Shown one piece after another: positions 4,551 through 18,052 of a stretch of 34,625 nucleotides of DNA. Source of the stretch: a virus; IMG/VR virus record IMGVR_UViG_3300011116_000315, positions 1 to 34,625 of that record. The stretch is one strand, 5' to 3'. How positions within the stretch are numbered: position 1 is the stretch's first letter; the number at the start of each line of letters is the position of its first letter. The translations under genes and the position numbers were made by a program. The notes beneath the pieces were generated by a model, which was given only the letters and a program-made list of their open reading frames with translations, was not told where the DNA came from and made no database searches.

Positions 4551-5066
4551 TCACGCGGCTGTTGATTCTTGTTCTTGATTCTGATGAGCGGCAGACCTTA
4601 GCAGACGGTCGGCAACATATACCCAAATAAAACCACCAGCAATCTTTGCGGCAAATTGAAGAAGCACGATTCCGGGCATTAGCCCTCCAAACGCAATCGT
4701 CGGAAATACAAGGGAATCAACTGCGGCTCCGGCAACGTTGCTTTTGTTTGCCCTAGAAAACCAAGAACCTTTCATCTTTGCAAAAACAACCCAGTCAACC
4801 AATGCGGCTAACGTAAACGCGCAAGCCGACGCTATGGCAATTTTTCCACTAGCAGGGTTAAGCAAATAAGTAAGAATTCCAGACGAAGCTATGAGCGCAC
4901 CCATCTTCCACAGTCTTAGCCTTACATGTAACCAATCTCTTAACGCCAAATCTAAGCCTATAAACAGAAAAGCATTAATTGGACTAATCGCAGGGCCAAA
5001 CGCAGCAACCGAAAGATTCGCAAGCGTCATTGCAATCGTGTAAATACCAATAGCTATGTAAAGCAT
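4551..5066 (-). CDS. yhhQ: YhhQ/VUT-family queuosine-precursor (preQ0/preQ1) transporter
   Basis: A 171-residue integral membrane protein with about six hydrophobic segments. It carries the VUT/DUF165 signatures FGPAISPINAFLFIGLDLALRDWLH (residues about 23-48) and an NVAGAAVDSLVFPTIAFG segment (about 110-127). In bacteria this family imports the 7-deazaguanine bases preQ0/preQ1 across the inner membrane. It is somewhat shorter than the E. coli protein (about 220 residues). The ATG at 5066 has AGGAG five bases upstream, located in the last codons of the DpdA-like gene, so the two are tightly coupled (13-base overlap). Import of the modified base would feed DpdA directly. Substrate is inferred from family and neighbour. 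Confidence 0.85.
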   Translation of the reverse strand: MLYIAIGIYTIAMTLANLSVAAFGPAISPINAFLFIGLDLALRDWLHVRLRLWKMGALIASSGILTYLLNPASGKIAIASACAFTLAALVDWVVFAKMKGSWFSRANKSNVAGAAVDSLVFPTIAFGGLMPGIVLLQFAAKIAGGFIWVYVADRLLRSAAHQNQEQESTAA

Positions 5067-5737
5067 AAGTTCTCCTGTACAGGTCTAAGGTTCCAATGGT
5101 TCGGTGGGTTTTCTGAGTCAATACGCTTTGCCATGCAATAAGCGCATTCAGTCATGCTTTTATGGTTGACAGCAACATTTGTGGAATCCGCACTTGATAA
5201 CGGCCAGCGTTCGAGCCCCTGTCCCAACATCCGCATTCCATGCGTCCAAGGTAGCCGACCAAATGTTTTCGCAAGCCGGTTGAATGTTTCGTCCATTCTT
5301 CCCTGCCACTTTGCATCGCCGACATTCCAGTATTCACCAGATGAGCCGAGACAAACTCGACCCCAATCGTCTACAAGCTCGCAAAGGTAATCTAACGATA
5401 AACCTAGATGCCAGACCGGAATGCCTAAAGACTTTGGGAAAGGCCATGTCGCAGTCATTTCTCGCTGTTGCTCTATCGTCCCGTCGATTACATCAGGAAC
5501 AACACCCCAATGAGGGTGAGCAAGTATTGGATCTATCCAGTCGTAGAAACCGTGTAAGTCAAACGGAACCCCTCTTGTCTTGCAACTAAAGGCTCCGTTA
5601 TCCAACATCAGCGACTGACCGATTTTTAGACAAGTTTTTAAGTCTCTTGGCTCAAAGTAAGAAATGCAGAAGTGTTCACCGGCTAAAGTCTCTAGGACTG
5701 ATCTAGGTGTAATAGGTGTACCGTGGTAGTGGATCAT
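5054..5737 (-). CDS. dpdA: DpdA-like DNA guanine transglycosylase (7-deazaguanine insertion)
   Basis: A 227-residue protein resembling phage DpdA, the TGT-related enzyme that swaps guanine in DNA for preQ0 or a derivative. Visible motifs are LDNGAFS (D46, where TGT enzymes have DSGGFQ), PDVIDG (D82), VWHLG (H110), LGSSGEYW, H166GMRMLG and SSADST (D184, the likely nucleophile position), plus a possible metal site C198xxC201. Its tight overlap with the YhhQ transporter supports the assignment. No QueC/D/E/F or FolE homologue was seen, so the phage would depend on host-made precursor. The start ATG at 5737 has no Shine-Dalgarno of its own and overlaps the stop of a six-codon ORF that has one. 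The bound base (preQ0, preQ1 or other) cannot be told from sequence. Confidence 0.78.
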   Translation of the reverse strand: MIHYHGTPITPRSVLETLAGEHFCISYFEPRDLKTCLKIGQSLMLDNGAFSCKTRGVPFDLHGFYDWIDPILAHPHWGVVPDVIDGTIEQQREMTATWPFPKSLGIPVWHLGLSLDYLCELVDDWGRVCLGSSGEYWNVGDAKWQGRMDETFNRLAKTFGRLPWTHGMRMLGQGLERWPLSSADSTNVAVNHKSMTECAYCMAKRIDSENPPNHWNLRPVQENLCFT

Positions 5738-5754
5738 TTGTTAACTTTAGACAT
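5734..5754 (-). CDS. putative six-residue leader ORF coupled to dpdA
   Basis: ATG (5754) to TGA (5736-5734) encodes MSKVNK. GGGGGA lies just upstream, and the stop forms ATGA with the dpdA start, which itself lacks a Shine-Dalgarno. It may deliver ribosomes to dpdA by termination-reinitiation. It could instead be a coincidence, or the tail of a decayed longer frame. Confidence 0.35.
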   Translation of the reverse strand: MSKVNK

Positions 5755-6004
5755 AGTTCCCCCAAGGGTGGTAGCACTCACCTTACCCAGCAGGGGTCGC
5801 TTCTGGATGTTCCCTGCCTAGTACAGCCTAAGCCAGCGATTCTCTCCACCTCTTGCTTGTCCCACCCATGTACAAGAGGCTTTGTCCAGTACCTCACTGA
5901 CAGTCTGGATCGGCATGAAACGGGGTGTTTCGCCAGCCGGTGTTTTCTTCCGCGCATCCCATGCAGGATCTTGATAACGCTCGGAGTACGGTTGACGTGC
6001 AAAC
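5755..6004 (-). other. leader region upstream of dpdA; no convincing gene
   Basis: About 250 bases between the terminator-like structure at 6005-6076 and the dpdA start. A 65-residue frame (GTG 6015 to TAG 5818) starts inside the terminator stem and has no Shine-Dalgarno. Beyond its TAG the same frame stays open into MSKVNK at 5734. Local inverted repeats are visible: CCTCTTG/CAAGAGG around 5848-5880 and GCAGGG/CCCTGC around 5790-5817. The last is followed by ACCACCCTTGGGGG, in which CCC could mask the GGGGG Shine-Dalgarno. It reads more like a structured 5' untranslated region than a gene. No clear promoter was found inside it. Confidence 0.4.
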
Positions 6005-6103
6005 AAAAAAGCCACTTACTGCTGCGCCTAGTAGCTGTCCCCTGTTTTAACAAGGGTAGACGCATGAGTAAGTGGCCTTTCGATTGTTGACAGCTACGAC
6101 AAC
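6005..6103 (-). ncRNA. candidate pseudoknotted RNA ending in an intrinsic terminator
   Basis: Minus-strand RNA with two crossing helices. Helix 1 pairs GCCACUUACU (6076-6067) with AGUAAGUGGC (6020-6011). After a 2x2 internal loop it continues with UGCGUCUA (6064-6057) against UAGGCGCA (6030-6023), which includes one G-U pair. Helix 2 pairs GUAGCUGUC (6097-6089) with GACAGCUAC (6039-6031), all nine Watson-Crick. A small hairpin CCC(U)UGU/ACAGGG sits at 6056-6040. The order 5'-H2-H1-hairpin-H2'-H1'-3' is an H-type pseudoknot with directly stackable helices, and helix 1 is followed by six U (6010-6005). The complementary strand lacks a U-run, so the minus strand is favoured. It could be an independent small RNA, or the structured 3' end of the upstream nuclease mRNA and leader of dpdA. 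No known family was recognised. Confidence 0.6.
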
Positions 6104-6109
6104 ATCTTG

Positions 6110-6137
6110 ACTTTATCAGAAATCCACAATCTTGCAA
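6110..6137 (-). promoter_or_regulatory. possible sigma70-type promoter for the structured RNA
   Basis: On the minus strand TTGCAA (6137-6132), a 16-base spacer and TAAAGT (6115-6110), preceded by TG as an extended -10, would place the start near 6103, just before helix 2 of the structured RNA. Each hexamer departs from consensus. The -35 lies inside the end of the nuclease gene. Speculative. Confidence 0.3.
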
Positions 6138-6430
6138 GTCCATCCCGCCTTTAGCTTTCCCCATCCGTGAACAGTAATCTTCCAGCCTGCCGACAGGATC
6201 GTAGGCAAATGCTCCGACTCTTGGATCTTAGTCACTCGCGCAGCAACGTTACCTCTGCTTGTAGTCTGCACCAGTAGCGTCTCACCGGCTCTGATTGCCA
6301 GTATGTCGCCTATGCCAAATAGGTCTTGCCTGATCCTCGCATGAGGGTTCCAGCGCTCGACAATCTGGCAGAGATAGCCTTCAGATCTGAGTTTTTCCAG
6401 TGATCGTTGTGTTGGTGATTTACCGCTCAT
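6116..6430 (-). CDS. PD-(D/E)XK-like phage nuclease (resolvase-like)
   Basis: A 104-residue protein of a phage family with the pattern SPTQRSLEKLRSEGY ... VERWNPHARIRQDLFGIGDILAI ... LLVQTTS. The core beta strands carry E25, D36, D42 and QTT (55-57), consistent with a degenerate PD-(D/E)XK/VRR-type fold in which the final E-x-K is Q-x-T. Relatives are annotated as hypothetical or Holliday-junction-resolvase-like, so an active nuclease is possible but not certain. It is the first gene of the leftward early operon, divergent from the recombination genes, and ends immediately before the pseudoknot-like RNA. Start ATG 6430; its Shine-Dalgarno is weak. Confidence 0.65.
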   Translation of the reverse strand: MSGKSPTQRSLEKLRSEGYLCQIVERWNPHARIRQDLFGIGDILAIRAGETLLVQTTSRGNVAARVTKIQESEHLPTILSAGWKITVHGWGKLKAGWTCKIVDF

Positions 6431-16450: not shown

Positions 16451-18052
16451 TTATCCCCAAATTAAAGCTGCAACGATGCCGCTAGATGTTCCGCCGCCGC
16501 CAGCAGGGCCCGTCGGACCCGTAGGGCCGGTGGTTCCTGTGCCTGTCGGACCAGTGGGACCGGATGTTCCCGTTGGACCTGTTGGTCCGGCCACCGTACT
16601 TGCGGCTCCGGTCGGTCCGGTTGGTCCGCCGGTTCCCGTGGGACCCGTTGGCCCGCTCGCGCCGGATGTTCCCGTGGGACCGGTAGGTCCGCTAGACCCG
16701 CTCGCACCAGTGGGTCCAGTGGGGCCGGCCACCGTTGATGCTGCCCCTGTCGGACCGGTAGGCCCGCTCGCCCCAGAAGCCCCGGTAGGACCCGTCGGGC
16801 CAGAAACACCTGTGGGACCGGTGGGACCGGAAGCGCCAGAACTACCCGTGGGACCTGTGGGCCCCGCCACTGTTGAAGCAGCACCCGTCGGGCCTGTGGG
16901 ACCCGCTGCGCCGCTCGCTCCCGTAGGACCAGTAGGTCCCGCAACCGTACTGGCAGCACCCGTTGGACCGGTAGGCCCAGAAGCACCGGTGGGACCGGTT
17001 GGTCCGGCAGTTCCGGTTGCCCCCGTGGGTCCCGTCGGCCCTAAGCCTCCAGTTACTACAACGGTTACATCGGTTCCTATTGCGGTAGCCGTAACACCCG
17101 TACCCGTAAAGTTGAATGAAGTAACGCCAGAAGTTAGTAGCGTCCCCTCATCCGATACAGCGATATTCGTACCCGTTCCCGCAGGCCCTGTCGGTCCCGT
17201 CGGCCCAGCAGATCCGGCTCCCGTGGGACCAGTAGGACCAGCAGCGCCAGTAGGGCCAGCAACGGTAGAAGCTGCCCCCGTGGGTCCCGTTGGCCCCAAA
17301 TCACCCGTGGGTCCGGTTGGCCCAGCAACCGTGGATGCAGCACCGGTTGGACCGGTAGGGCCTGAGCTACCAGCGCTTCCTGTGGGACCGGTGGGACCTG
17401 CGACGGTACTGGCCGCACCGGTAGGACCTGTGGGACCTTCGTTTCCTGCGCTGCCCGTAGGCCCTGTAGGACCGGCAACACCTGTTGGACCGGTAGCGCC
17501 AATATTACCCGTGGGACCTGTGGGGCCCGCAACGCCTGAGCCTCCCGTAGGACCGGTGGGACCGCCTGCGGGACCCGTGGGCCCGATATCTCCGGTAGGA
17601 CCCGTGGGGCCGTTAACCCCAGCAGATCCGCTAGCGCCGGTTGGACCCGTAGGGCCATTTGCGCCATTACTCCCAGTGGGACCCGTGGGGCCAACGCTTC
17701 CAGAACTACCAGACGCTCCCGTCGGTCCCGTCGGGCCGGTTACGGAAGCACCGGTAGGACCTGTCGGACCGCCCGCTGGACCGGTTGGGCCGGTATCTCC
17801 GGTGGGACCGGTGGGGCCATTTGTTCCATTACTGCCGGTGGGGCCCGTGGGACCGCTACTTCCTGCGGCTCCGCTAGCACCCGTGGGACCTGTGGGTCCG
17901 CCAGGGGTTCCCGCAGCTCCAGTGGGACCCGTTGCTCCGGTAGGACCCGCTGCACCAGTGGGGCCTCCCGGTAAGCCGGCAGGACCGGTAGGGCCGATTA
18001 CGCCTTGGTCAACAACCAAGGTGATATTGCTGCCGTTAACAGTAGTAGTCAA
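16451..18052 (-). CDS. collagen-like tail fibre protein
   Basis: A 533-residue protein built mostly of Gly-X-Y triplets, dominated by GPTGPTG blocks separated by short variants ([19 protein letters not shown]). Residues about 1-18 ([18 protein letters not shown]) form a small head. Two collagenous arms are separated by a globular beta segment (about 292-338, [21 protein letters not shown]...VVVTGG). The C-terminus is [11 protein letters not shown]. Phage collagen-like proteins trimerise into triple-helical fibres. The start is TTG 18052, in a TTGA overlap with the upstream gene. The repeat DNA invites slippage, so length may vary between relatives. Confidence 0.88.

Follow-up and report, generated by a model that had tools for sequence, protein, structure and literature searches.

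The virus record IMGVR_UViG_3300011116_000315, analysed over its full 34,625 nucleotides (hereafter the window), carries a long RNA pseudoknot with an intrinsic terminator upstream of a dpdA-like gene. The question is whether this element serves the neighbouring gene or is an RNA with a role of its own. An earlier note, made from the sequence alone, had entertained both a phage small RNA and an attenuator. Comparison across related loci favours an RNA in its own right, situated ahead of a second, larger structured RNA.

The fold of R1

The element, named R1, lies on the minus strand (6103-6005) and has two crossing helices, one of 10 + 8 bp flanking a 2x2 loop and one of 9 bp, with U6 at its end. 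These two interleaved inverted repeats, described in the earlier note, can be read off the minus strand exactly. The parts of R1 are:

6005..6103 (-): R1 RNA, with P0 hairpin, H2 pseudoknot, P1a/P1b stem, P3 hairpin and terminator; match to the R1 covariance model at 6004-6107, 95.3 bits, and covariation
6086..6103 (-): P0 hairpin, GTTG(T)/(T)CAAC with an 8-nt loop; 95% of cells paired, two-sided change at 4/5 pairs
6097-6089 (-): H2 in full, GTAGCTGTC paired with GACAGCTAC at 6039-6031, 9 bp in the window copy; from sequence
6097-6091 (-): conserved part of H2, 7 bp, GTAGCTG paired with H2' CAGCTAC at 6037-6031; from covariation
6011..6077 (-): stem of P1a, 2x2 loop CA/GC and P1b, around P3 and H2'; 99.8% of cells paired, two-sided change at 14/18 pairs
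6077-6067 (-): P1a, GGCCACTTACT paired with AGTAAGTGGC at 6020-6011; from sequence
6066-6065 (-): CA of the 2x2 internal loop between P1a and P1b, opposite GC at 6022-6021; from sequence
6064-6057 (-): P1b, TGCGTCTA paired with TAGGCGCA at 6030-6023, 8 bp with one G-U; from sequence
6056-6039 (-): P3 hairpin, CCCTTGT-TAAA-ACAGGGG; 82.5% of cells paired, two-sided change at 4/4 modelled pairs
6005..6010 (-): U6 tract, intrinsic terminator; from sequence, with a T-run 3' of the stem family-wide

P0, which was absent from the earlier note together with the promoter and the downstream second RNA (E2), is a helix of 4 bp (GTTG 6103-6100 with CAAC 6089-6086), and the H2 5' strand comes from its loop. 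The nested part of R1 on its own folds at -46.8 kcal/mol (z = -5.2), equalled by none of 200 shuffles. A scan for a 10-bp arm beside T6 with an 8-bp crossing helix matched the window once and gave no match in 200 shuffles of its full length, in line with the earlier judgement that crossing helices of this length are improbable by chance. By their pairing, H2 and the terminator stem are mutually compatible, so that one molecule can contain both and a switch between the two is not evident.

Covariation in the R1 family

A DNA pattern based on the conserved stem (TTACTCATGC N25-55 GCAGYAGTAA) recovered at least 120 stretches and, among the matches listed, R1 is present in upwards of 120 viral contigs (>120, a lower bound). 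A covariance model was built from 37 dereplicated members. Over 101 aligned matches (100 distinct, one row being an antisense shadow), 93.9% of cells are paired and two-sided compensatory changes occur at 28 of 34 pairs; the covariation score is 0.477, as against 0.180 for shuffled alignments and 0.07-0.15 for slid partners. H2 had been left out of the model, which therefore could not bias the test of its pairing: with its own H2', the crossing helix forms 7/7 pairs in 99 of 100 members over 42 distinct loops, compared with 4.1% when partners are swapped between members with different loops. A sub-class has an H2 of 9-15 bp and an unchanged P1 core. Covariation thus supports all four helices, the crossing one included. 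Compensatory changes in both helices, which the earlier note had proposed to seek in relatives with a covariance model, are seen, and relatives examined for the loss of either helix keep them.

Since the stem UUACU-CA-UGC/GCA-GY-AGUAA was fixed in the first pattern, its invariance was tested separately. Among the matches listed, a scan with the 2x2 loop freed gave no R1 member bearing another loop; with the three pairs next to the loop freed, UGC/GCA was found in 92/93 and a compensated UAC/GUA in 1/93. The stem is nearly invariant in the main R1 clade. In a set anchored on E2 instead of R1 (see below), some R1 relatives have compensated stems, e.g., UUACA-CA-UGC/GCA-GU-UGUAA, and in others the stem differs; the fixed core is therefore a trait of the main clade and not of the whole group. 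Taken together, the comparative data demonstrate the structure of R1 and show that the fold is real, defining a family of ~100-base knotted RNAs in many environmental phages.

R1 as a predicted transcription unit

A promoter can be recognised directly upstream of R1:

6132..6137 (-): -35 element TTGCAA, within the final codons of ORF 6116-6430 (104 aa); from sequence
6110..6115 (-): -10 element TAAAGT, extended TGn, 16-bp spacer; from sequence

The window copy (TTGCAA-16-TAAAGT) is a moderate match to the consensus, weaker than the R1 family average, and relatives share the layout as TTGCAA-16-TAAgAT. When the 50 nt upstream of R1 were scored at 109 dereplicated sites, a sigma70 promoter with at least 9/12 consensus bases was found at 66, compared with 8.9% of shuffles, and the family -10 hexamer lies mostly 12-13 nt 5' of GTTG. 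From the promoter position, R1 is expected to start at ~6104 and to end at 6005. At the R1/E2 junction a promoter is not apparent (>=9/12 at 2/109 sites). A T-run, which also served as a filter in some scripts, follows the stem throughout the family. R1 is present as one copy in each record that carries it (32 of 38 records searched); where a record gave a second match, it was an antisense shadow due to palindromy or, once, a weak partial match. With its own promoter, a compact RNA body and a GC stem followed by a U-run, R1 thus has the sequence hallmarks of a generic terminator-ended phage small RNA, and the promoter, the terminator signature and the single copy per genome are demonstrated at this level.

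Genomic context and distribution

The genes on either side of R1 in the window are:

5054..5737 (-): dpdA-like tRNA-guanine transglycosylase (phrog_887), next gene downstream; PHROG match 2e-42
6116..6430 (-): 104-aa ORF upstream, whose 3' end includes the -35 of the promoter; Pfam and PHROG searches negative

The 104-aa protein has 200 relatives in viral contigs among the matches listed. The genes that flank R1 elsewhere are diverse and include the 104-aa ORF, terL, scaffold, portal, replication and recombination genes and dpdA. A dpdA-like gene lies directly downstream in 9 of 131 R1 loci; conversely, some dpdA phages are without R1 (G031, G032, G036, G037) or have a different pseudoknot RNA, termed class II, in its place (L102, L104). 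As the neighbours vary, R1 does not appear to gate dpdA, and the earlier suggestion of an attenuator gating dpdA-yhhQ does not hold up against these counts. Its companion, the sensing of a 7-deazaguanine, fares no better, with dpdA so seldom the next gene and no preQ1 riboswitch match even at relaxed Rfam thresholds; the same searches bear out the earlier observation that no preQ1 consensus was recognisable.

Searches of cultured phages by blastn with several R1 members returned only MW202484, itself an uncultivated Manatee Spring phage. The strict R1 pattern gave two real matches in 84,980 bacterial and archaeal genomes (L246, L250), both of them short MAG contigs labelled betaproteobacterial and the sole source of the host assignment. 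In two samples of 399 genomes, with 10 candidates scored per genome, the R1 model found no convincing chromosomal copy. R1 thus appears to be nearly absent from bacterial chromosomes. At ~45 sister loci, including L029:5339-5407, int-alpA RNA (RF02996) replaces R1 after the same 104-aa ORF, an identity verified by Rfam in L029 and assigned by pattern in the others. Int-alpA RNA is probably part of phage loci of the R1-E2 kind.

A second structured RNA downstream of R1

The sequence beyond the U-run is conserved across unrelated contexts and defines a further element, E2, which begins within ~30 nt of the R1 3' end and is ~250 nt long. In the window it sits between R1 and dpdA:

5746..5991 (-): E2, second structured RNA, CCGTACTCC... 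to ...CTATGTCTAAA; first row of a 29-sequence alignment

Two-sided changes occur at 28/32 pairs in this alignment of 29 sequences, and the covariation score is 0.753 vs 0.252 for shuffled alignments; as the E2 helices were picked from the same alignment, a fairer yardstick is given by slid controls (0.05-0.17). The single-sequence fold of the window E2 is no better than that of shuffles, so that the support for E2 comes entirely from covariation. A reading of the region as a small ORF (5818-6015; CDS UOF77725.1 in MW202484) was rejected because the covariation points to RNA. In MW202484 the hypothetical protein annotated there (UOF77725.1, L002:3024-3383) starts inside R1, spans E2 and is probably not a real gene. 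At the end of E2 in the window, a mini-ORF, ATGTCTAAAGTTAACAAATGA (MSKVNK), has a stop codon overlapping the dpdA start codon, which suggests translational coupling in this phage.

At two loci (L131:3442-3558 (-) and L177:6892-7009 (-)) the E2 directly downstream of R1 is Betaproteobacteria-1 RNA (RF02932); the bacterial genomes L569 and L570 carry RF02932 without an obvious R1. The idea of R1 as a free-floating small RNA lacking a fixed partner was overturned by E2.

What precedes E2

Sets anchored on R1 inflate the link between the two elements, and the weight is carried by an E2-anchored scan, which was not conditioned on R1, used one E2 type and comprised 79 dereplicated sites among the matches listed. 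A terminator hairpin with a T-run was found within 60 nt upstream of E2 at 67 of these sites. The main R1 type accounts for 22 of the 67 and some 23 more are recognised by the R1 model, giving ~45 R1 relatives, whereas the remaining terminator sites belong mostly to a second pseudoknot-terminator class, class II (L005, L008, L433-L450; L478-L559). Class II RNAs (AACCCC...GGGGTTTTT) occupy the same position as R1 upstream of E2 and have an H2 of 7-15 bp outside the stem, which is kept in 20/21 sequences vs 12% with swapped partners, the lone exception probably being a chance match. This anchored test discriminated; a free crossing-helix search and the first class II pattern were too permissive. 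At two sites (L424, L476), a tRNA-like 3' end (GGTTCGAATCC, GGTTCGATTCC; read by eye) precedes E2 in place of R1. On the genomic evidence, the linkage of R1 to E2 is tight and demonstrated by comparison, and a stable linkage of R1 to any gene was not seen.

Relation to known RNAs

Rfam cmscan gave no match at gathering score over the whole window and, for 5950-6200 at E<=10, only a chance match to mir-1744, with preQ1 and HDV-type families absent. Rfam 15 holds no family for R1, class II or the E2 type of the window, relaxed thresholds being included for R1 and the window E2, and the GOLLD and ROOL models are unmatched both in the window and at every other locus scanned. Searches of the open-access literature gave no description of R1. 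Together with the covariation and the promoter and terminator signature, the Rfam result supports the earlier proposal that this is a small RNA of the phage, previously undescribed, which folds as a pseudoknot and ends in an intrinsic terminator.

A published parallel is RCd22-abiF of the Clostridioides difficile phage phi027, in which a small RNA is terminated and accumulates ahead of a unit that is transcribed together with it; the case shows that such an RNA can combine a role of its own with one in cis (PMC12373285). Like this RNA (abiF motif RF03085), R1 is a structured RNA of ~100-130 nt with its own promoter and an intrinsic terminator, and the read-through by which the downstream unit is co-transcribed in RCd22-abiF is one that we infer at R1. 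In contrast, RCd22 contains a pair of abiF motifs and lies ahead of a toxin gene, whereas R1 is a single pseudoknotted unit before a second RNA and is not followed by a conserved protein. GOLLD and ROOL are large structured phage RNAs, and in GOLLD a conserved 3' part is joined to a 5' part that is less so (PMC12286853), a division reminiscent of E2 and R1; a further likeness is the tRNA-like end that precedes two of the E2 copies. Unlike GOLLD and ROOL, R1 is ~100 nt and terminator-ended, and both R1 and the window E2 are without an Rfam match. Betaproteobacteria-1 RNA (RF02932) and int-alpA RNA (RF02996) are elements of the E2 side, and neither model matches R1. The window shares with preQ1 riboswitches a pseudoknot close to a gene related to 7-deazaguanine, but R1 has no family match and its neighbour gene is not conserved.

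Proposed mechanism and alternatives

We propose that R1 is a dedicated phage gene for a short, probably protein-binding RNA, which is released by its pseudoknotted terminator; the same terminator would restrict read-through into E2. We give this reading about an even chance. Host RNA polymerase would start at the sigma70 promoter of R1, make ~100 nt and mostly halt at U6, at an efficiency that we infer from the terminator signature. The product would be compact, with a pseudoknot of 7-15 bp tying the loop of the 5' hairpin to the terminator stem. Some polymerases would pass the terminator and transcribe E2 by read-through, such that R1 may also set the transcription level of E2 and of any gene that follows; the locus would then yield two RNAs from one promoter, R1 mostly by termination and E2 by read-through. 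The free sequence of H2 with strict pairing, set against a near-fixed irregular stem, suggests that H2 provides architecture and the stem a contact surface, most likely for a protein, which would probably come from the host; the RNA may benefit the phage. Alternatively, the conserved stem could be a recognition site for RNA polymerase or function in termination, and the different stem sequences found with the same E2 in R1 relatives and class II argue against one universal protein contact.

The main rival is a purely cis role, in which R1 is a pseudoknotted attenuator that meters E2, the folding of H2 decides entry into E2 and the 100-nt product is functionless; a trans role would then be superfluous. 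We hold this to be possible, if rather doubtful. Elements of R1 topology do lie directly upstream of E2 at most E2-anchored sites, without an apparent promoter in between, and pseudoknot-terminators of different sequence (class II, L005 type) take the same position; however, attenuation does not need the near-invariant UUACU-CA-UGC/GCA-GY-AGUAA, and an alternative antiterminator pairing is not seen, H2 and the terminator being compatible. The constant spacing and the one upstream promoter would also suit a single RNA of ~360 nt comprising R1 and E2, with a U-run that is not a working terminator. This is unlikely given the canonical stem and U-run at 67/79 E2-anchored sites, across sequence-unrelated classes, and the presence of the E2-type RF02932 in bacterial genomes that lack an obvious R1.

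The other candidates are considerably weaker. A 7-deazaguanine-sensing attenuator of dpdA-yhhQ, as in the earlier note, would account for the position of R1 in the window and in the few other loci with dpdA next to it, but the unrelated downstream genes of most R1 loci largely refute it, dpdA being found without R1 and a preQ1 family match being absent; it is very improbable. HDV-like ribozymes have the strand order P1-P2-P3-P1'-P2', and in these and the theta ribozymes P1 is invariably 7 bp long and a joining strand carrying the catalytic C lies before P2'. R1 shares this nested double-pseudoknot order, and such ribozymes are known in phages (PMC10879173). Nevertheless, a self-cleaving ribozyme of the theta type is the least credible of these readings: the H2 of R1 varies from 7 to 15 bp, the 0-2 nt between H2' and P1b' leave no joining strand for a catalytic cytosine, the molecule ends in a terminator, its conserved nucleotides are paired and no Rfam ribozyme matches it. 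A type III antitoxin-like RNA of the ToxI kind, directed against a ribonuclease toxin, would likewise be pseudoknotted, promoter-driven and terminator-ended, but R1 is a single copy per record and not a repeat array, and its downstream genes are mutually unrelated, with no conserved ORF among them; we consider this hardly probable.

A broader reading, which we put forward as tentative though quite conceivable, is that many environmental phages have, one to a genome, a two-part noncoding cassette that moves as a unit, in which an interchangeable pseudoknotted-terminator RNA is followed at most ~30 nt on by a large E2, the two being driven by one promoter and acting jointly on the host. It would cover R1, its variants, class II and others, some of them unrelated in sequence and alike in strand order, with E2 drawn from several unrelated families including Betaproteobacteria-1 RNA. 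R1 is a structured noncoding RNA of phages, and for the two-part locus there is a real chance of novelty; if the two-part reading is true, a small and a large RNA acting jointly on the host would constitute a new kind of phage RNA system. R1 itself adds an unusually well-proven RNA family (pseudoknots in 99/100 members over 42 loops) that is common in environmental phages and outside Rfam 15, and Betaproteobacteria-1 RNA, a known orphan, belongs to the R1-E2 kind of phage locus. The locus also offers concrete constructs for probing the roles of large and small phage RNAs (cf. GOLLD, ROOL).

Two minor observations concern the contigs themselves. One R1-bearing phage contig also has a Type II hammerhead ribozyme (RF02276; L148:7942-8003 (-)), and the structural genes of the window include a protein with a long collagen-like GPTGPTG repeat (16451-18052 (-)).
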